DNA of 13,932 nt. Source: Desulfuromonas sp. SDB. GTDB taxonomy: Bacteria > SDB-A. Shown in pieces: positions 1,406-13,932 of the stretch (positions are counted from its first letter, which is position 1; the number at the start of each line of letters is the position of its first letter). Below the pieces are notes generated by a model. That model made no database searches and was not told the DNA's origin. It was given only the letters and a program-made list of their open reading frames with translations. The stretch is from contig LKUE01000256.1 of the NCBI GenBank assembly GCA_001412365.1, positions 1 through 13,932 of the forward strand. Reading direction: 5' to 3'. The position numbers and the translations under genes were made by a program.

Positions 1406-3493
1406 ATGAGTTTGAAAGTAAAATTACTAATCTTTTTGATTTTGATAATTGCGGTATTTATCTCCTACTTTCCCACTTTTTTCAATGGCTTTATCTACGA
1501 CGACCAGGATTTAATTTTAGAAAATCAGGTAGTTACCCAGCACCAGTGGAGTAAAATTTTCACCAGCGACCACTGGGAATCAACCCGGGGAGCTTCCCCT
1601 TATTTCCGTCCTCTGGTTATCACCAGTTTTACTCTGGAATATTTTCTGTGGAGACAAAATCCCCGGGGATATCATCTGGATAATGTCCTTCTTCATTTAC
1701 TCACCGCACTGTTCATCTGGGCGTTTGCGGAGAACATAAGCAAAAACAAATTAAAATCCAACCTTTCCCCACATCTTCCCTGGCTGGCGGCGATGACCTT
1801 TGCCCTTCATCCTGCCAATTCTCAAACTGTATACTGGATTTCAGCAAGAGGAGATCTGCTGGCAACCTTGGGAATTGTTGCCGGTATATATTTCTGCCTG
1901 ATTAATTCCTGGCGGAAATATCCAGGAGTTATTGTGGCAACAGCTCTGGCTATTTTCAGCAAGGAAACCGGAATATTATCGTTGGCGCTGATTCCCCTGA
2001 GTTATCTGTTTTTCAGTTCACCTAAAAAAAAGAAAATTTCTCTGATAGTTTTTACCGCTTTGATTGTAATGGTTTTTGCAATTTACATGCTGCTGAGGGT
2101 CAGAGCAGTTCAGATATCACCTTTTGTCGGTTCTGATGAAAGCTTCTGGTATCCCCAGGATGGTCATCTCACCAGAATCCTAACCCTTCCTGCCATCTGG
2201 GGTTATTATCTTCTGAGGGGAATATTTCCCTACTATCTCAACTTTGAAACAGGAATACATCTTTTCTACGCCTGGAATGACTGGCAATTCATATTGGGGC
2301 TGTTTTCAATAGCTTTAACTATTCTGCTATCAGTAATTATGTGGAAAAACAAAATATACCGGTGGTTTATTCTGTTCTGGATTATATCTCTGTTCCCATT
2401 ACTGAACATAATTCCCGCCTTCGAGTCGGGGATGGAACATTACCTTTATTTGCCACTAACTGCCGGATCAATCTTTTTAGCCAGTTTAGTAATCAAAAAG
2501 AATTTACTCATAAAAATTTTCCCCATAATTTTGTTAACTTTTGCGGTCACAGTATTTCTCCGGGGTAAAATTTGGAAAAATCCGGAAATTTTCTGGAAAG
2601 ATGCAGTGGCTAAAACCGGTATTCACTGCCGCCAGGGATGGATTAGATCCCGCTACAATTTAGCTGGGGTCTATCTGGACCATTACCGGGAAGAGACAAC
2701 TAATGCTGAATATCTGGATAAAGCTGAACAGCTTTACCGGGAAATATTTAAATCCTATCCTCATTACGGAGGACTTTACATAAGTTTCGGAGACATTGCG
2801 GTAGTTCGGGGCAATAATTCCCAAGCTATAGAGTTCTACCAGCAGGCTATCCAGAGGTATCCCCAGAATCATATAATATACAATAAACTGGCTATCTGTT
2901 TTGCAGTACAGAACAACTATCCGGAAGCGGAAAGAAACCTCCGCCGTTCCCTGGAACTGAAACCGGATTACCAGGACGGTATATTAAATTTAACTCATAT
3001 TTTGCTGGTACAGGGGGACATCACCCAGGCATCTCAATTATTGTACACTATGGAAAATCCCACTCAGCCGGAATTCAAGGTTTTGAGCTATGTTCTTGAA
3101 ACCTTGCAGGATAATTCAGCTCAACTGGAAGACAGCTTGAAATACAAAGCAGTTCAGATTTTCCAGGAAGCCGAAAAGTACCGGCATCAGATAAACTTAA
3201 TGGCTGAGTTATACCAAAATCATCCTGAGGATTCTAATCTTCTTTTCGATATCTGTCTGGTTTATTACTCTGATCTGAATGAACCGGTTAAATGGCTCGA
3301 ACATATCCGCCAAGGTTATCAAAAATTCCCGGGGGACTGGAGGTTTGCCCGGGAACTGGGAGTTTACTATATCATCAACCAGGACAGCGCCAATACGGTG
3401 GAAATGTTCAAAAAAGTATTGGAATTAAATCCGGATAATCCCGAAGCACCGCAGATGAGAGAATTAATCACCAGTTTTCAAAGCAGCTATTAA
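1406..3493 (+). CDS. TMTC-like GT-C membrane glycosyltransferase with C-terminal TPR domain
   Basis: The 695-residue protein has an N-terminal membrane half (about 1-390, some 9-11 helices) and a soluble TPR half (about 428-690). In the first loop after helix 1, FIYDD gives paired Asp residues 32-33, the usual place of the catalytic acid in GT-C enzymes. Three further blocks match the TMTC/O-mannosyltransferase pattern: HPANSQTVYWISARGDLL (135-152), SKETGIL (185-191) and EHYLYLPL (344-351). Such enzymes move a sugar from a polyprenyl-phosphate donor to a protein or glycan on the outer face of the membrane; the TPRs usually bind the acceptor or a partner. Donor and acceptor here are unknown. 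GAAAGG (1389-1394) lies 11 bases before the ATG at 1406; a TTG at 1400, two codons upstream, has a 5-base spacing and is also possible. The gene ends tail-to-tail on the CapA gene. Confidence 0.8.
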   Translation: MSLKVKLLIFLILIIAVFISYFPTFFNGFIYDDQDLILENQVVTQHQWSKIFTSDHWESTRGASPYFRPLVITSFTLEYFLWRQNPRGYHLDNVLLHLLTALFIWAFAENISKNKLKSNLSPHLPWLAAMTFALHPANSQTVYWISARGDLLATLGIVAGIYFCLINSWRKYPGVIVATALAIFSKETGILSLALIPLSYLFFSSPKKKKISLIVFTALIVMVFAIYMLLRVRAVQISPFVGSDESFWYPQDGHLTRILTLPAIWGYYLLRGIFPYYLNFETGIHLFYAWNDWQFILGLFSIALTILLSVIMWKNKIYRWFILFWIISLFPLLNIIPAFESGMEHYLYLPLTAGSIFLASLVIKKNLLIKIFPIILLTFAVTVFLRGKIWKNPEIFWKDAVAKTGIHCRQGWIRSRYNLAGVYLDHYREETTNAEYLDKAEQLYREIFKSYPHYGGLYISFGDIAVVRGNNSQAIEFYQQAIQRYPQNHIIYNKLAICFAVQNNYPEAERNLRRSLELKPDYQDGILNLTHILLVQGDITQASQLLYTMENPTQPEFKVLSYVLETLQDNSAQLEDSLKYKAVQIFQEAEKYRHQINLMAELYQNHPEDSNLLFDICLVYYSDLNEPVKWLEHIRQGYQKFPGDWRFARELGVYYIINQDSANTVEMFKKVLELNPDNPEAPQMRELITSFQSSY

Positions 3494-4653
3494 TCCCCGG
3501 GGGGCACAAACAATCCCTGTTTGCCGTCACTGGAAAAAACCACCGGGCTTTCAATGCCGGATATGTAAGGACTAGTGCTGATGGTATTTAACCATTCTAT
3601 CCTTTGTCTAACCCCCGATGAATCTTCCACCGGGTGGGGCTGGTAGTGCATATCGTAAATAGGGATTACCGCCACCGAATCCAAAGTGAGTTGATTGGAA
3701 AGATAGATTTTAGCCAATACCCCGAAGTCCATCCGGTTAGTTCCTCCGGGGACAGTAGCCATGTTCCTGGCTCCCAGCATTAAAAAGTTGCCCAAACTGT
3801 AAAAAGCCATTTTACCCTCCCTGTACTCCACTGCCTGGGCAATATGGGGGTGGTTTCCGATCACCAGATCAATCCCGTATTCATCCATAGCTCTCCGGGC
3901 AATCTCCATCTGGTATCCCTGCACATAAGGATCTCTTTCCTGCCCCCGGTGCATCGCCAAAATCCGGTAGTCAGCATCTTCCGCCGCTAACCGTTCACAG
4001 ATGGTCTCAAAATAGTTAGGAGTGGCTACCCCCGGGGAGGATTGATAGGCAGGCAAACCGGAAAAACCAATGCTGGAAAAAGCAATTCGGTAACCTCTTA
4101 CTTCCAAAATTGACGGACGGGTGGCTTGTTCCAGATTTTCTCCGGCTCCGGAATAAGCAAGGTCATAATGCCGGGAAATTTCTTTCATGTTTTGCACCGT
4201 TTCCACCACTCCCTGTTTGCCGTAGTCCTCCATGTGATTGTTGGCTAAACTGAACAAATTAAAACCTATATCACATAAATGTTTCACCCCGTTAGGATGT
4301 ATGCGGAAACAGTAGGATTTATCGGCGGCAGATAACCGGTTATGGGCAATCACAGTGGTCTCCAGGTTGCAGTAATTGATATCCCCGTCAATTAAATCGG
4401 CAATGTTTGCCGAATAATGGCTGAACGGAAATACTCCCCGGTTGGAAACACCTCCCGAGGAATCTACAGGTGCTTCCGAACGGGCAAAATTTAAATCCCC
4501 CACCGCAACTATGGTAATTCCGGAACGGGGTTCACTGAAAATTTCCGGACTCAGCTGGACTATCCGGGCATTTAAGGAATCTTTTTGAATTTCCTGTCCG
4601 GGTAGAACTGCAACCATTCCCAAATAAAAGCTAAATAAGCAAAATTTAATCAT
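3490..4653 (-). CDS. CapA-family calcineurin-like metallophosphatase, exported
   Basis: This 387-residue protein matches the CapA/PgsA fold (metallophosphatase superfamily; poly-gamma-glutamate capsule synthesis protein family). Motifs in order are VGDLNFAR (51-58, metal-binding Asp52), NLETTV (96-101), ANNHMEDYG (137-145), MHRGQE (234-239), GNHPHIAQ (266-273) and YSLGNFL (285-291). The fourth block is usually HWGxE, so Trp is replaced by Arg. Residues 1-20 look like a signal peptide, which would place the enzyme in the periplasm. CapB and CapC ligase genes are absent, so a capsule role is not shown; many lone CapA proteins have no known substrate. GAGG at 4659-4662 fixes the ATG at 4653. The stop codon overlaps that of the convergent glycosyltransferase. 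Confidence 0.85.
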   Translation of the reverse strand: MIKFCLFSFYLGMVAVLPGQEIQKDSLNARIVQLSPEIFSEPRSGITIVAVGDLNFARSEAPVDSSGGVSNRGVFPFSHYSANIADLIDGDINYCNLETTVIAHNRLSAADKSYCFRIHPNGVKHLCDIGFNLFSLANNHMEDYGKQGVVETVQNMKEISRHYDLAYSGAGENLEQATRPSILEVRGYRIAFSSIGFSGLPAYQSSPGVATPNYFETICERLAAEDADYRILAMHRGQERDPYVQGYQMEIARRAMDEYGIDLVIGNHPHIAQAVEYREGKMAFYSLGNFLMLGARNMATVPGGTNRMDFGVLAKIYLSNQLTLDSVAVIPIYDMHYQPHPVEDSSGVRQRIEWLNTISTSPYISGIESPVVFSSDGKQGLFVPPGD

Positions 4654-8751: not shown

Positions 8752-9534
8752 TTAATTATCCTGCTTTTGGTCTTCTCCTTGATTATCGGTGCTGTCATTG
8801 AAATTAATCGGTATTTGATAGCACTGACCGGAGTAGACATAATGAAATATATAATCCGCCCATAGCTGGTAGGCAATATTTTTCAGATGAAGCCCTTCTA
8901 TAGTCAATTCTGGTTTAATTTGGCCCCGTTCATCGGAAAACTGATGGTGGAGGTCAATATATTTTATTTGATAATGGTGGAGGTACAGACTGTCACATAA
9001 ATTTTGCAGAATCATGTTTAATGAATCTATTGCCGGATTAAGCCGGGCATAAACTCCCCCCGTAGGTAAAATGCTGTGTACAAAAATCTCAATATCCGGA
9101 AAACTGTCTAAAATACATTTGATAATTTTACCATAGCCATCTCCCAGCTCCTCCACCGGTCTTCGCCGGTCTCCCAGATCATTAATCCCCACCATTATAA
9201 ATACTTTTGAAGGTTTTAATGCATAGCATGATTCATTCATCCTCTTTAAGATCCCCCCATCAGTACCCAAACCAATTCTATCCCCGGTAATCCCCCGGTT
9301 TATTGCATAAACTCCGGGAAAGTACTGTTCAAGATCAAAAGCTTCAACTATGGAATTTCCAATAAATACCACTCCTCCCGGGGCAATATCCTCATTTTCT
9401 CTGCGGAACTGATATAGCTTCTGCAGGTAAAACTGGCGCTGTTGCTGGTTGACAAACTGATTGCCGCTGGAATCTGAAACATCCCCGGTTAACAATATCC
9501 CTAAGAGAAATATGTTTAACAGTTCAATCAGCAA
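8752..9534 (-). CDS. Exported SGNH/GDSL hydrolase, PAF-acetylhydrolase-like
   Basis: The 260-residue product has an N-terminal hydrophobic segment (1-16) that looks like a signal peptide. The four SGNH blocks follow: FIGNSIVEAF (57-66) with nucleophile Ser61, NRGITGDRIG (79-88) with Gly81, VGINDLG (115-121) with Asn118, and EGLHLKN (213-219) with His216. Block I has Asn for the Asp of GDS, and block V has Glu for the catalytic Asp of DxxH. It probably removes acyl groups, most likely acetyl, from a sugar or lipid in the periplasm. The start is a TTG at 9534, with AGGA at 9546-9543 eight bases upstream and no ATG near. It overlaps the DUF459 gene by 11 bases, so it is translated in the same operon, as the last gene. 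The C-terminus is acidic and polar (FNDSTDNQGEDQKQDN). Confidence 0.82.
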   Translation of the reverse strand: MLIELLNIFLLGILLTGDVSDSSGNQFVNQQQRQFYLQKLYQFRRENEDIAPGGVVFIGNSIVEAFDLEQYFPGVYAINRGITGDRIGLGTDGGILKRMNESCYALKPSKVFIMVGINDLGDRRRPVEELGDGYGKIIKCILDSFPDIEIFVHSILPTGGVYARLNPAIDSLNMILQNLCDSLYLHHYQIKYIDLHHQFSDERGQIKPELTIEGLHLKNIAYQLWADYIFHYVYSGQCYQIPINFNDSTDNQGEDQKQDN

Positions 9535-10540
9535 ATTTAAATTCCTGTTGTAAAAGATTCATCAGTTCATCCGCGACAATTTGTCCTCCTGCCCTGGTCA
9601 TGTGGATGCCATCTTCCCCCCGGGCTAATATCTGCCTTCCGTTTACGGTTATATAAGTTGAATAATTTCCATTTTGATCACCGAGCAGGGGAACTGTGGA
9701 TACGTAGGTAGCCCTGGGATGAGAAGCGCAGGCTTGTTCAAATAATTGGTTAAGACTTTGCATTCTTTGATTATACCCCGAGGCTCTCATCGGAGGCATG
9801 CCCACCCAGTATACATGATAGGTGTAGACGCTTAATGTATCCAGGAAATCATTCAACCTGTCCCGGTAGACATCATACCATTGTTCAGTTCCGTAAGTAT
9901 AGATTACTCCGTCCATTTCAAAATTCTGAGCGTCATTAGTCCCCATCATAATAATCACCGCATCATATTGTCCCTGAGAGAACAACTGCCTGATCTGAGC
10001 CGGCCAGTTGTAGAAATCGGGGCGGGACAATCCTGAGGATACTTTATAATGCCGGTTGGGATTCATGCGGTCATCGTCATTTAATGCTCGAAGCAGCATG
10101 GTTCCCAATCCATCCCCCATCATTGAATCTCCGATTAATAATACGGACAGAGGGTTAGAGGAGGAATAAGTTACCGCCGAAGTGTTATCGCTATGAACAT
10201 CAGTTGAAGCCAGGTGGTTTATACTGTCGTTTTCAATATGATAAATTCCTCCGCTGGCTGCAATAAATCCTGCTTCTCTCTGTTTGCCCATAGCATAGTG
10301 GAAAGACTGCCTTAAAAGTTTCCGGGGATAGGTAAGTTTTACTTTATCCATGGCGGAATTTAGCGGTTCAGATACATTGACAAAAAAGGTTCTGGTTTTA
10401 CCCACCTTTAACCTTTTAGCCCATCCGTACAACCCTGACGAATCAAACACCAGAACAAAAAACAGGGCAATGGCTAATATTATGGAAACATCTTTTAAGC
10501 TGTACTTCTTTTCATGTTTAAAATGTTTCATATAATCCAT
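9524..10540 (-). CDS. Membrane-anchored DUF459-type SGNH hydrolase or acyltransferase partner
   Basis: The 338-residue protein has one N-terminal helix (about 17-34) after a basic cytoplasmic start, a linker, then an SGNH domain (about 130-335). Its catalytic blocks are LLIGDSMMGDG (134-144) with Ser139, MMGTNDAQ (198-205) with Asn202, and GEDGIHMTRAG (308-318) with Asp310 and His313. The pattern resembles the DUF459 family, often encoded beside MBOAT O-acyltransferases. By analogy with AlgJ/AlgX, PatB and DltD, it would take the acyl group exported by the MBOAT protein and pass it to a periplasmic acceptor. The ATG at 10540 is fixed by GGAGG (10550-10546), whose first G is the last base of the MBOAT stop codon. 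All three catalytic residues are intact, so it could instead be an esterase. Confidence 0.85.
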   Translation of the reverse strand: MDYMKHFKHEKKYSLKDVSIILAIALFFVLVFDSSGLYGWAKRLKVGKTRTFFVNVSEPLNSAMDKVKLTYPRKLLRQSFHYAMGKQREAGFIAASGGIYHIENDSINHLASTDVHSDNTSAVTYSSSNPLSVLLIGDSMMGDGLGTMLLRALNDDDRMNPNRHYKVSSGLSRPDFYNWPAQIRQLFSQGQYDAVIIMMGTNDAQNFEMDGVIYTYGTEQWYDVYRDRLNDFLDTLSVYTYHVYWVGMPPMRASGYNQRMQSLNQLFEQACASHPRATYVSTVPLLGDQNGNYSTYITVNGRQILARGEDGIHMTRAGGQIVADELMNLLQQEFKFAD

Positions 10541-10549
10541 TAAATCCTC

Positions 10550-11968
10550 CTAAAACCTGAAATATATAAAGGGAGCTACCCCTTCAGGTCCAAATGCACT
10601 TATCAGCAGTAAAACTATTCCCAGGAGTATACCTTGCACCACCAGGGGCAGTCCACTGAACTTGTCCCTAATCCACTGACCTGGTTGGGGAGGGATGAAA
10701 TGCATTCCAATTCCAATTACTATCAGAAATAAAACAAACGGAGTCAGCATGGTTATGGGCACAGTCAGATTTCCCAGAGATTTAAAATATTCCAAAGCTA
10801 AGGTAAACGACCGGGCTCTGAAGAATACCCAACCAATGCACACAAAATGAAAAACCAGAAATATGGTGATTATTTTTAAAACCAGTGATTTGGATTTGGA
10901 GTTGGCAAAGAATTTTTCTCTAAAAAATCTTTCCACTGCCAAACCCACTCCATGTAAAGTACCCCAGAATACAAAGTTCCAGGCAGCCCCATGCCACAAA
11001 CCACCCAGGATCATGGTTATGGAAAGATTGCGGTAAGTTTTCCATTTTCCCTTCTTACTTCCCCCCAAAGGAATGTAAAGGTAATCCCTTAGCCAGGTGG
11101 AAAGTGAGATATGCCATCTTCTCCAAAAATCTTGTATTGAATCCGCCCGGTAGGGAAAGTTAAAATTGTCCGGAAAATAATAACCAAGCAAAGCGGCTAT
11201 CCCAATAGCTATTTCACTGTAGGCGCTGAAATCGCAATATATCTGCACCGCATAGCCGTATACCCCGAATAAGACCTCTAATCCTGAAAAAGCCATGGGG
11301 TCTTCAAAAACAGGATCAACCAGTTCGGTGGCAATGTAGTTAGCAATGATAACCTTTTTAACCAAACCTGCTGCAATTAATACAAAAGCCCTTCCTGCCC
11401 GGATACTACTGGGATCAGGTTTTATCTTCAGCTGGGGTATGAAATCCTTCGCCCGGACAATGGGACCTGCTACCAATTGAGGGAAAAAGGAAATATACAG
11501 AAGGATATCCAGCAGAGATTTTGAATAGGAAATCTCTTTCCGGTAGACATCAATTACATAACTCATCGCCTGAAAGGTGAAAAAGGAAATGCCCACCGGA
11601 AGGACAATTTCCAGTAAGGGCAAGCTAGTGCCCAAATGAAGACGGTTGAGTAAATTATTCAGAGAAGTTACAAAAAAACCGTAGTACTTGAAAAATCCCA
11701 AAATACCCAGATTCCAGAATACTGCGAAACCGACAATGACTTTCCTGTACTTATCTTTACCTGCCGTCCCTAAACCCAAGCCGAATAAATAATTACCCAA
11801 TGAACAGGATAGAAGAAGAAAAACAAACCGCCAGTCCCAAAATCCGTAGAAAAAATAAGACGCCAAAGTTAAAAGCACTTTACGTTCAAATTGCCGGTTT
11901 TTCAGCAACCAGCTAAAGGTAAACACCACTGCAAAGAATATTCCAAATTCAACTGTAGGAAAAAGCAT
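10550..11968 (-). CDS. MBOAT-family O-acyltransferase, AlgI-like
   Basis: This 472-residue protein has about 11-12 membrane helices and the AlgI/DltB/PatA-type signatures. DFWRRWHISLSTWLRDYLYI (280-299) holds His286, and GGLWHGAAWNFVFWG (322-336) holds the catalytic His326. LVAGPIVR (166-173) and the C-terminal SAFGPEGVAPFIYFRF block are also characteristic. The family carries acyl groups, usually acetyl, across the inner membrane for attachment to alginate, cellulose, peptidoglycan or teichoic acid. The start is taken as ATG at 11968, which overlaps the esterase stop as TGATG; a TTG at 11971 adds one residue. A GGGG run at 11976-11973 is a weak ribosome site, so reinitiation is likely. The acceptor is unknown because no polymer synthase is in the window. 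Confidence 0.92.
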   Translation of the reverse strand: MLFPTVEFGIFFAVVFTFSWLLKNRQFERKVLLTLASYFFYGFWDWRFVFLLLSCSLGNYLFGLGLGTAGKDKYRKVIVGFAVFWNLGILGFFKYYGFFVTSLNNLLNRLHLGTSLPLLEIVLPVGISFFTFQAMSYVIDVYRKEISYSKSLLDILLYISFFPQLVAGPIVRAKDFIPQLKIKPDPSSIRAGRAFVLIAAGLVKKVIIANYIATELVDPVFEDPMAFSGLEVLFGVYGYAVQIYCDFSAYSEIAIGIAALLGYYFPDNFNFPYRADSIQDFWRRWHISLSTWLRDYLYIPLGGSKKGKWKTYRNLSITMILGGLWHGAAWNFVFWGTLHGVGLAVERFFREKFFANSKSKSLVLKIITIFLVFHFVCIGWVFFRARSFTLALEYFKSLGNLTVPITMLTPFVLFLIVIGIGMHFIPPQPGQWIRDKFSGLPLVVQGILLGIVLLLISAFGPEGVAPFIYFRF

Positions 11969-12954
11969 CAATCCCCACTTTCAAAAATAAATATAAGTGC
12001 ATTAGCCACTGCCTGCTTTAAGCCGTTGACATGATCGCCGTCGTATACCTCAAACCTGTACTGTTGTCCGGACAACTGTTTGCTTAATATCTGATCTGCC
12101 TGCAGATAGTAATCCAAATCAACTACTATATCTCTTCTCCCCATTCCTAAATACAATTTATCAATACTTTCCGGGATGAGATTATATTCCAATTCAGTAA
12201 TCAGGTCGTAGCCGGATCTTTTCCAAAGATACAACAAATCATCAAATATTCTAAGAGAACCGTCAATTTCCACAAATGGCAGCTCATGATTATTCTCCCC
12301 AAATGCCTTGAACATGTAATAAGTCAATCGAGTGAAAAAGTGATTTTCATTCCACTCATCAGGATTTGCCCACTGCCCTTCCCTCTGTACATAGAAAAGC
12401 CAGTCCTGGACCATATCCACGCTGATTATTCCTGAAAGGCAGGCTCCCTTGGAAAACTTTGGTTCATTGAGGATGAGATAAAAAGATCCGAATCCCCCCG
12501 CGGAATGACCGATTAATATGTATTCAGAAACTTCAAGATCAAATTTTTCTTTGACCATCTGTTCTGTCCACCGGCACAAATATTGGGAAATAAAATCTCT
12601 CCATCTTCCCCCGTTTAAAGAATTTACATAGAAACCGCTACCCCCGTCCATGGTAGGATTAACAATTACCGCCACTGCCGGGGGGATTTTCAATTCTGCG
12701 GTCAACTCGTTCAGAATTTCTTTTAAACTTATAAAACTTTCATACCATTGAGGATTGCCGTCAAAACCGGGCAGTACAAAAATCACTGGAATCGAGTTTT
12801 GATTGTTTTTTGAAGATTCAATAAGCTGGTCAGAGGGAGAATACAATGCTACTTCTACCTGTCCAATTCCCATTTGGGGCTGAGGATTCAAGAAATAATA
12901 TTCCACCTCATATGTTCCTGATATTAAACTTAAATAAACAATTAATGTCAACAA
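11968..12954 (-). CDS. Exported alpha/beta-hydrolase esterase (EstA/esterase D-like)
   Basis: The protein of about 328 residues begins with a hydrophobic segment (1-13) that looks like a signal peptide, then a beta-rich section and an alpha/beta-hydrolase domain. IGHSAGG (148-154) holds the nucleophile Ser151. GRRDIVVD (272-279) supplies the likely acid, Asp275 or Asp279, and GDHVNG (306-311) gives His308. FVLPGFDGNPQWY (59-71) is the expected oxyanion region. The domain resembles the putative esterase family (antigen 85/esterase D-like), which acts on acylated sugars or carboxylic esters. The start is uncertain: TTG codons at 12954 and 12951 are in frame, no ATG is near, and no Shine-Dalgarno site is seen. 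It lies 20 bases after the foldase gene and overlaps the MBOAT gene by a TGATG junction, so de-acylation or acyl transfer for the same pathway is a reasonable inference. Confidence 0.8.
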   Translation of the reverse strand: MLTLIVYLSLISGTYEVEYYFLNPQPQMGIGQVEVALYSPSDQLIESSKNNQNSIPVIFVLPGFDGNPQWYESFISLKEILNELTAELKIPPAVAVIVNPTMDGGSGFYVNSLNGGRWRDFISQYLCRWTEQMVKEKFDLEVSEYILIGHSAGGFGSFYLILNEPKFSKGACLSGIISVDMVQDWLFYVQREGQWANPDEWNENHFFTRLTYYMFKAFGENNHELPFVEIDGSLRIFDDLLYLWKRSGYDLITELEYNLIPESIDKLYLGMGRRDIVVDLDYYLQADQILSKQLSGQQYRFEVYDGDHVNGLKQAVANALIFIFESGD

Positions 12955-12974: not shown

Positions 12975-13932
12975 TTAACGGATAAGCCTCAAATTATCAA
13001 TTAAAAATGAGTTGAATACCTCAGAACAGTTTTCAAAATTTAACTCCAGCTGGTATTTATCTTTTAACTGCTGATAATACTGCTCTAATAATTTATTGAT
13101 TTTTTCCCGGCGGCATTCATTGACTACCTGTACATGCAAGCTGTCCAGGGGAATGACATAAGATTCCCTGGCATCTATTATTTTAATAAACGACCAACCG
13201 TCAATTGTTTTAAATAAATCTGAAACATCCCCTAGTTCCAATTCCTGGAACATCGGTTTTAAAGTCCCTCCCCTGGATCTTTCTCTCCATCCCCCGTCTC
13301 CTCCTTTATCTGCAGTGGGGTGAATAGAGAACTCCCGGGCAAGTGAATCCATGGAATATCCTTGAACTACTAAATTACGAAGAGAATCGGCAAAAATGCT
13401 GTCCGGCACCAGAATTATGCTATAACGGTAGCTTTCATCTCTCCGATAATTATCCTGATGAGTCTGATACCATTGTTCCATTTCTTCCATATCTACAAAT
13501 ATAGTGTCAGCAATATTATTTACCAGTTTATCCCTTAAATATTGATCGGATAAAAATCTTATCTTAGCCCATAACCATTGATCTGACTGAAGCTGCTGAT
13601 TATACTGATCAACTAAGTAATCCTGGAAGATAATTTCTTTTTCCAGCATATATTTAAAATTCGATGTCTCGCTGAATTTGGGAAAAAATCCTTTTCTCCT
13701 CAATCTCACCATCGCTTCTCCCAGGGTAACTTCTCCCCAGGGGGTATAAGCCAATATCCTCTGAGAATCCTGAGGAGTAATATTGGGGAAATAAGGGATG
13801 GGAGATGAATCAAACTTAGCACTGTCCACTGAAACCATGAAATCAAAACTAGCTTGATCATAACTCATTTCTGGAGTTGCCAGCATATTAAGCATGGAAT
13901 TAATTAAATGTTCTTTTTTTCTCATGTCCATC
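12975..13932 (-). CDS. PpiC/SurA-type peptidyl-prolyl cis-trans isomerase, 5' end missing
   Basis: About 318 residues of the C-terminal part are present. A parvulin (PpiC) rotamase domain lies at about 165-255, with GGDGGWRERSRGG (212-224) and a GDVSDLFKTIDGWSFIKI end (237-254). Helical regions flank it. The N-terminal part in view (EHLINSMLNMLATPEMSYDQ) looks like the interior of a longer foldase and has no signal peptide. The Met at 13931 is therefore probably not the real start and the gene continues past the window edge. Such enzymes fold outer-membrane and periplasmic proteins. It precedes the esterase by 20 bases on the same strand, so it may head, or belong to, the acylation operon, or only share its transcript. 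Confidence 0.8.
   Translation of the reverse strand, partial: MDMRKKEHLINSMLNMLATPEMSYDQASFDFMVSVDSAKFDSSPIPYFPNITPQDSQRILAYTPWGEVTLGEAMVRLRRKGFFPKFSETSNFKYMLEKEIIFQDYLVDQYNQQLQSDQWLWAKIRFLSDQYLRDKLVNNIADTIFVDMEEMEQWYQTHQDNYRRDESYRYSIILVPDSIFADSLRNLVVQGYSMDSLAREFSIHPTADKGGDGGWRERSRGGTLKPMFQELELGDVSDLFKTIDGWSFIKIIDARESYVIPLDSLHVQVVNECRREKINKLLEQYYQQLKDKYQLELNFENCSEVFNSFLIDNLRLIR

Follow-up and report, generated by a model that had tools for sequence, protein, structure and literature searches.

A probable PatA/PatB-type peptidoglycan O-acetylation operon with non-Ape1 candidate esterases in Desulfuromonas sp. SDB

On which polymer does an envelope O-acyltransferase act when its gene lies among esterase genes and no polymer synthase is encoded nearby? 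The question is raised by contig LKUE01000256.1 of Desulfuromonas sp. SDB (3.14 Mb genome, 98.7% complete), analysed here over its whole length of 13,932 bases (the window). It encodes a PPIC-type foldase, an alpha/beta-hydrolase (EST), an O-acyltransferase of the MBOAT family, a DUF459 protein and a GDSL_2-type esterase (SGNH). An initial annotation described the last four as an MBOAT with three hydrolases, acylating and de-acylating an unknown surface polymer. The analysis reported here favours, with a probability of about 0.7, O-acetylation of peptidoglycan by a PatA/PatB-type system whose de-acetylation arm is not Ape1.

A PatA-type MBOAT and its PatB-type partner

Pfam places PatB in DUF459, which has been named the Gram-negative peptidoglycan O-acetyltransferase family (PMC9487903). 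Residues 132-329 of the window's DUF459 protein align with the PatB structures 7tjb (8e-22), 7trr, 8tlb and 8gr2, and its residues Ser139, Ser168, Asn202, Asp310, Ile312 and His313 correspond to Ser133, Ser161, Asn196, Asp302, Ile304 and His305 of Neisseria gonorrhoeae PatB (NgPatB). In block II, Ser168 replaces a Gly, as the equivalent of NgPatB Ser161; this change and Ile304 are said by the PatB authors to mark a transferase over an esterase. The position of NgPatB Leu250, which forms a hydrophobic wall with Ile304, is occupied by a Tyr. The protein carries an N-terminal transmembrane anchor (residues 14-32). Of the three hydrolases initially annotated, two stand as candidate esterases; the third, DUF459, was rejected as a hydrolase on its PatB-type active-site features and appears instead to be a PatB-type transferase partner.

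The catalytic His327 of the MBOAT is invariant in an alignment with Neisseria PatA. Its C-terminus, FIYFRF (Tyr470), is preceded by the hydrophobic segments 404-422 and 443-461 and fits the FXYXXF acyl-shuttle motif. In Campylobacter jejuni PatA, the Tyr of this motif is auto-acetylated from acetyl-CoA, and an acetylated peptide of N. gonorrhoeae PatA gives its acetyl group to PatB (PMC12148441). A total of 80 MBOAT relatives were retrieved with up to 10 kb of flanking DNA, and a maximum-likelihood tree was built from 72 MBOAT proteins. It separates 51 MBOATs, that of the window among them, from 21 unlinked ones with a split support of 100/99.5; the 51 comprise the DUF459/Ape1-linked MBOATs, three Neisseria-type PatAs and five unlinked MBOATs nested among them. 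A quicker 96-row tree agrees. In the tree, Neisseria PatA is a long-branched neighbour and not the closest relative of the window's MBOAT. DltB is the top match of this MBOAT in the PDB and in NCBIfam; identity with DltB was rejected on a score of 181 bits against a TIGR04091 cut-off of 375 and on the fusion of the shuttle motif to the MBOAT.

DUF459-type proteins occur in other contexts as well. A second, short DUF459/PatB-like protein (~230-250 amino acids, SGNH domain only, its block V reading DGCH and not DGIH) is encoded in the window's genome (L093:9563-10276, G000:C263) and in three genomes of the same phylum (L097, L098, L099); in all four its gene follows an ACT-domain gene and faces an electron-transfer-flavoprotein gene, with no MBOAT nearby. 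Three consecutive DUF459 genes precede the MBOAT in two loci of Hyphomicrobiales (L036, L042), a local expansion of PatB-like genes.

A five-gene unit kept in changing surroundings

The phylum was sampled by four genomes from two genera: that of the window (G000) and three relatives (G001-G003), one of which (G002, a WOR-3 metagenome-assembled genome, contig JAFGIG010000047.1) is listed under Caldifarciminota. In all four, the genes are arranged as PPIC-EST-MBOAT-DUF459-SGNH, only a few bases apart, and each genome possesses a single MBOAT, always within this order. The PPIC gene holds the same position throughout (542-547 amino acids where complete), and EST is restricted to this operon in each genome. 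Identity of the three relatives to the window's proteins reaches 71% for the MBOAT, 57-59% for DUF459, 52-54% for SGNH and 28-32% for EST. In the relatives, the unit is bounded on one side by MutS2-DnaG-RpoD and on the other, in the two whose contig extends beyond it, by genes for a universal-stress-like protein and for a transporter of the CitMHS type; in the window, HPPK and prolyl oligopeptidase genes come after its SGNH end. As the flanking genes differ between the window and its relatives, the unit has been kept while its surroundings changed, and the linkage is not due to chance. The comparison of gene order across genomes proposed in the initial annotation thus reveals linked, not scattered, genes in all four.

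No glycan-polymer locus was found around the unit in the relatives, whose flanks are housekeeping genes, and the earlier remark that no polymer synthase is nearby is borne out: no alginate or cellulose synthase stands beside it. The AlgI-like annotation of the MBOAT, together with the fact that the window is a whole contig with upstream genes beyond it in this genome, might point to an acetylation cluster of the alginate or cellulose type (AlgI/J/X, Wss) that is truncated where the contig stops. This explanation is largely refuted and thus highly improbable: the partner is a DUF459 protein, the tree sets the MBOAT apart from unlinked AlgI-like MBOATs, and the unit is bounded in the three relatives by the genes named above.

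Peptidoglycan as the probable acceptor

The closest relatives of the window's MBOAT, from Ignavibacteriota, Spirochaetota, Armatimonadota, Actinomycetota, Chloroflexota, Kiritimatiellota/Lentisphaerota and Pseudomonadota, are likewise paired with DUF459; MBOAT-DUF459 pairs are also found in candidate phyla. In most alphaproteobacterial clusters an Ape1-like gene is located between DUF459 and MBOAT. One alphaproteobacterial Ape1-like protein matches 4k3u/4k40 at 8e-31, an entry deposited as a GDSL-like protein; we take 4k3u to be Neisseria Ape1. When the NCBIfam PatB model was run over 300 genomes, three proteins passed its cut-off, each with an MBOAT and an Ape1 at its sides in the order patA-patB-ape1 and with the MBOATs ending in FIYANF or FIYADF; the match to the published NgPatA C-terminus suggests that these three genomes are Neisseria-type. 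O-acetyl-peptidoglycan (OAP) has been measured in alphaproteobacteria with OAP clusters, at 18.5% in B. japonicum (PMC1199599).

The window's genome encodes peptidoglycan synthases (class A penicillin-binding proteins), and peptidoglycan would be the one polymer common to the hosts of MBOAT-DUF459 pairs. A Pfam tally of the neighbours revealed no recurrent partner near the pair beyond DUF459 and Ape1, and no recurring glycan-polymer family; DAO and FAD proteins are often encoded nearby in this mostly alphaproteobacterial sample, probably reflecting local synteny. Since relatives carry the MBOAT in DUF459-Ape1 (OAP) clusters, the polymer is most likely peptidoglycan, an assignment made with good, though not full, confidence. 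Peptidoglycan being made elsewhere in the cell, its synthase is not expected near the operon. Of the cycle first proposed, the O-acylation module is retained and de-acylation is probable; the "unknown" polymer probably gives way to peptidoglycan, to which the DUF459-Ape1 relatives point.

Two candidate esterases and no detectable Ape1

EST possesses a triad, Ser151-Asp275-His308, that is invariant in the four genomes of the phylum. Its nearest solved structure is the esterase 8z91, followed by CE1 feruloyl/acetylxylan esterases, the CE1 comparison standing at ~17% identity with a weak model. SGNH harbors GNS in block I and EGLH in block V; Ser61, Asn118 and His216 are kept in the four genomes, and Glu213 takes the place of the block-V Asp in each. 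The catalytic residues, initially annotated as intact or near-intact in the three presumed hydrolases, are intact in EST, DUF459 and the MBOAT (His327, Tyr470), with the SGNH block-V residue as the exception. The SGNH profile matches 7pzg/6njc, a Bacteroides sialate O-acetylesterase, at 6e-25 (~25% identity), and Foldseek retrieves 6xpg/7pzh. The AlphaFold models, built from four-sequence alignments, are weak (pLDDT of 64 for SGNH and 55 for EST), and their fold matches were used only alongside the sequence-profile results. SGNH and DUF459 display clear N-terminal hydrophobic segments; the TTG start codon of EST is uncertain. EST and SGNH are both plausible carbohydrate esterases.

With an Ape1 profile, neither the window nor any of the four genomes of the phylum gives a match. 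The same profile identifies Ape1 in three genomes of which none is in the profile (G063, G149, G244), as well as Ape1-like proteins in an Ignavibacteriaceae genome (G008). OAP clusters have already been noted to vary in esterase genes and order (Weadge et al. 2005; PMC1199599), and variation as such is therefore expected. By position and family, EST and/or SGNH may be the de-acetylating enzymes, with the odds about even. A bolder proposal, tentative and rather doubtful, is that they constitute two new, non-homologous kinds of O-acetyl-peptidoglycan esterase replacing Ape1 in this phylum, within a five-gene operon that has its own foldase.

Alternatively, the MBOAT and DUF459 alone would form the acylation pair, and EST, SGNH and PPIC would be co-transcribed with unrelated roles, as lipid or xenobiotic esterases and a general foldase. 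Beyond the phylum, the pair is found in loci that lack both EST and this SGNH (L013, L054), a lone SGNH paralogue exists at another site in all four genomes, and EST is poorly conserved; these points are set against a gene order of overlapping genes that four of four genomes from two genera share despite their different flanks, the confinement of EST to the operon, and the fact that EST and SGNH are both nearest to carbohydrate esterases. We regard this alternative as possible but less than probable.

To note, the SGNH paralogue stands alone in all four genomes (L156:9264-10010, G000:C332; L157; L158; L159), and in the three relatives homologues of the window's 697-amino-acid TPR membrane protein and 298-amino-acid membrane transporter-like protein are encoded close to it. 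Genome G008 (L132-L134; C151, C308) encodes three MBOATs, only one of which is seen beside DUF459, and its Ape1-like SGNH proteins are on other contigs; the MBOAT at L133:1370-2869 is very divergent (branch 2.49) and has a 398-amino-acid exported neighbour.

Weighing the assignment

Several observations weigh against a peptidoglycan O-acetylation system of this kind. The DUF459 protein scores 104.1 bits (9.1e-30) against the NCBIfam PatB equivalog NF045704, whose cut-off is 580, and the match is limited to the SGNH part (profile positions 137-333 of 347). Because this cut-off is missed, the protein is classified as a PatAB-type variant and not as PatB sensu stricto. Nearly every MBOAT in the sample has FXYXXF, unlinked ones included; the motif therefore supports the mechanism, not the substrate, and was rejected as a substrate marker. 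In pairwise comparison the window's MBOAT reaches 337-373 bits against unlinked AlgI-like MBOATs and ~250-260 bits against Neisseria PatA: its grouping with PatA comes from the tree alone, where the PatA branch is long. EST evolves fast, as its identity values illustrate, and its export signal is weak; EST and SGNH are candidate de-O-acetylases with a putative link to peptidoglycan, drawn from position and family. Finally, G008 combines a DUF459-linked MBOAT with several Ape1-like proteins encoded elsewhere.

The pairwise scores would also suit the same acyl relay with another envelope glycan as acceptor (lipopolysaccharide, a capsule or an unknown exopolysaccharide), edited by EST and SGNH, as would the resemblance of SGNH to a sialate O-acetylesterase and a PGA_cap-domain gene 4 kb away in the window. 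Such an acceptor is unlikely, given that the tree joins the MBOAT to PatA and to relatives linked to DUF459 at the support reported above, that its partner is DUF459/PatB, that the flanks in relatives are housekeeping and not glycan loci, and that the pair is found in hosts with very different envelopes, of which peptidoglycan is the common polymer. An ALGX-family search in the phylum was empty, but its control was empty too, and hence it provides no proof of absence.

Proposed mechanism

In the favored peptidoglycan O-acetylation system, the MBOAT would take an acetyl group from cytoplasmic acetyl-CoA and load it onto its own Tyr470, in FIYFRF, on the periplasmic side. The membrane-anchored DUF459 protein would then receive the acetyl group on Ser139 and pass it on to a hydroxyl group of a glycan, in all likelihood the C6 hydroxyl of MurNAc in peptidoglycan. 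EST and SGNH, placed where other lineages have Ape1, would most likely strip the acetyl groups, letting the wall turn over, and the PPIC protein may help the exported partners fold, a role that is weakly indicated. The acyl-Tyr relay and the PatB chemistry are taken from the literature; gene order and its conservation, family, phylogeny, catalytic and shuttle residues and the lack of a detectable Ape1 come from the present analysis.

Gene layout

The four leftward genes initially annotated, with their coordinates and tight joins, are confirmed (Table 1), all four open reading frames lying on the minus strand, and each family label (esterase, MBOAT, DUF459, GDSL) is backed by Pfam. EST and MBOAT genes overlap, 9 bases separate MBOAT from DUF459, and DUF459 and SGNH overlap by 11 bases. 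The MBOAT probably starts, as in the relatives, at the ATG within the TGATG junction (11968) and not at the TTG at 11971. A GGAGG ribosome site precedes the DUF459 gene. The PPIC gene, 20 bases upstream of EST and running off the contig, is the fifth member of the operon and the first gene of the conserved unit.

Table 1. Genes of the operon in the window
Feature	Coordinates	Strand	Pfam match and remarks
PPIC-type peptidyl-prolyl isomerase/foldase (SurA/PpiD-like)	12975..13931	-	PF13145, 4e-12; cut by contig end
EST, alpha/beta-hydrolase, Esterase-D/CE1 type, probably exported	11968..12954	-	PF00756 Esterase, 3.7e-11
PatA-type MBOAT	10550..11968 (ATG start; ORF to 11971 with TTG start)	-	PF03062, 9.9e-31
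PatB-type SGNH O-acetyltransferase (DUF459), predicted	9524..10540	-	PF04311, 5.4e-63
SGNH, exported GDSL_2-type esterase	8752..9534	-	PF13472 GDSL, 1e-14

Elsewhere in the window, at 3490-4653 and ~4 kb from the operon, lies a metallophosphatase-type gene of the PGA_cap family (poly-gamma-glutamate capsule-type, CapA-like), whose product has an apparent signal peptide.

Comparison with known systems

The operon shares the MBOAT fold with DltB/DltD (with DltC and DltX), but here the MBOAT itself carries the shuttle motif in fused form, in place of a separate DltX, and dltA, dltC and dltX are absent from the unit. As in AlgI/AlgJ/AlgX, an MBOAT with the same type of C-terminal hexapeptide is combined with a periplasmic partner of SGNH fold; here, however, the partner is a DUF459 protein, alginate genes are lacking, and the main split of the tree divides the MBOAT from the unlinked AlgI-like ones. 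The alphaproteobacterial DUF459-Ape1-MBOAT clusters (Brevundimonas, Parvibaculum, Hyphomicrobiales) are similar in their MBOATs, mostly 51-58% identical to that of the window, and in their DUF459 partner; they differ in having Ape1 between PatB and PatA, a reversed gene order and no EST.

The OAP cluster patA-patB-ape1 of N. gonorrhoeae and C. jejuni (PMC1199599, PMC6174289, PMC12148441) likewise places the genes for a PatA-type MBOAT and for PatB/DUF459 side by side, patA before patB, with the gene of an exported SGNH protein next in line, and the catalytic and shuttle residues are the same. In contrast to that cluster, the SGNH of the operon (~260 amino acids) is not Ape1 and does not match its profile, a CE1-like esterase and a PPIC foldase are added upstream, and the similarity of DUF459 to PatB is confined to the SGNH domain. 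DUF459/PatB has been described as a small family, numbering a couple of hundred sequences and found only in Gram-negative bacteria (PMC9487903); the MBOAT-DUF459 pairs found here extend to candidate phyla, Ignavibacteriota, Spirochaetota, Armatimonadota, Kiritimatiellota/Lentisphaerota, Chloroflexota and Actinomycetota. If both esterases do act on O-acetyl-peptidoglycan, Ape1 would be replaceable and new classes of wall de-acetylases would exist. Most likely, the operon is a variant of the known PatAB system in a little-known, uncultured phylum.
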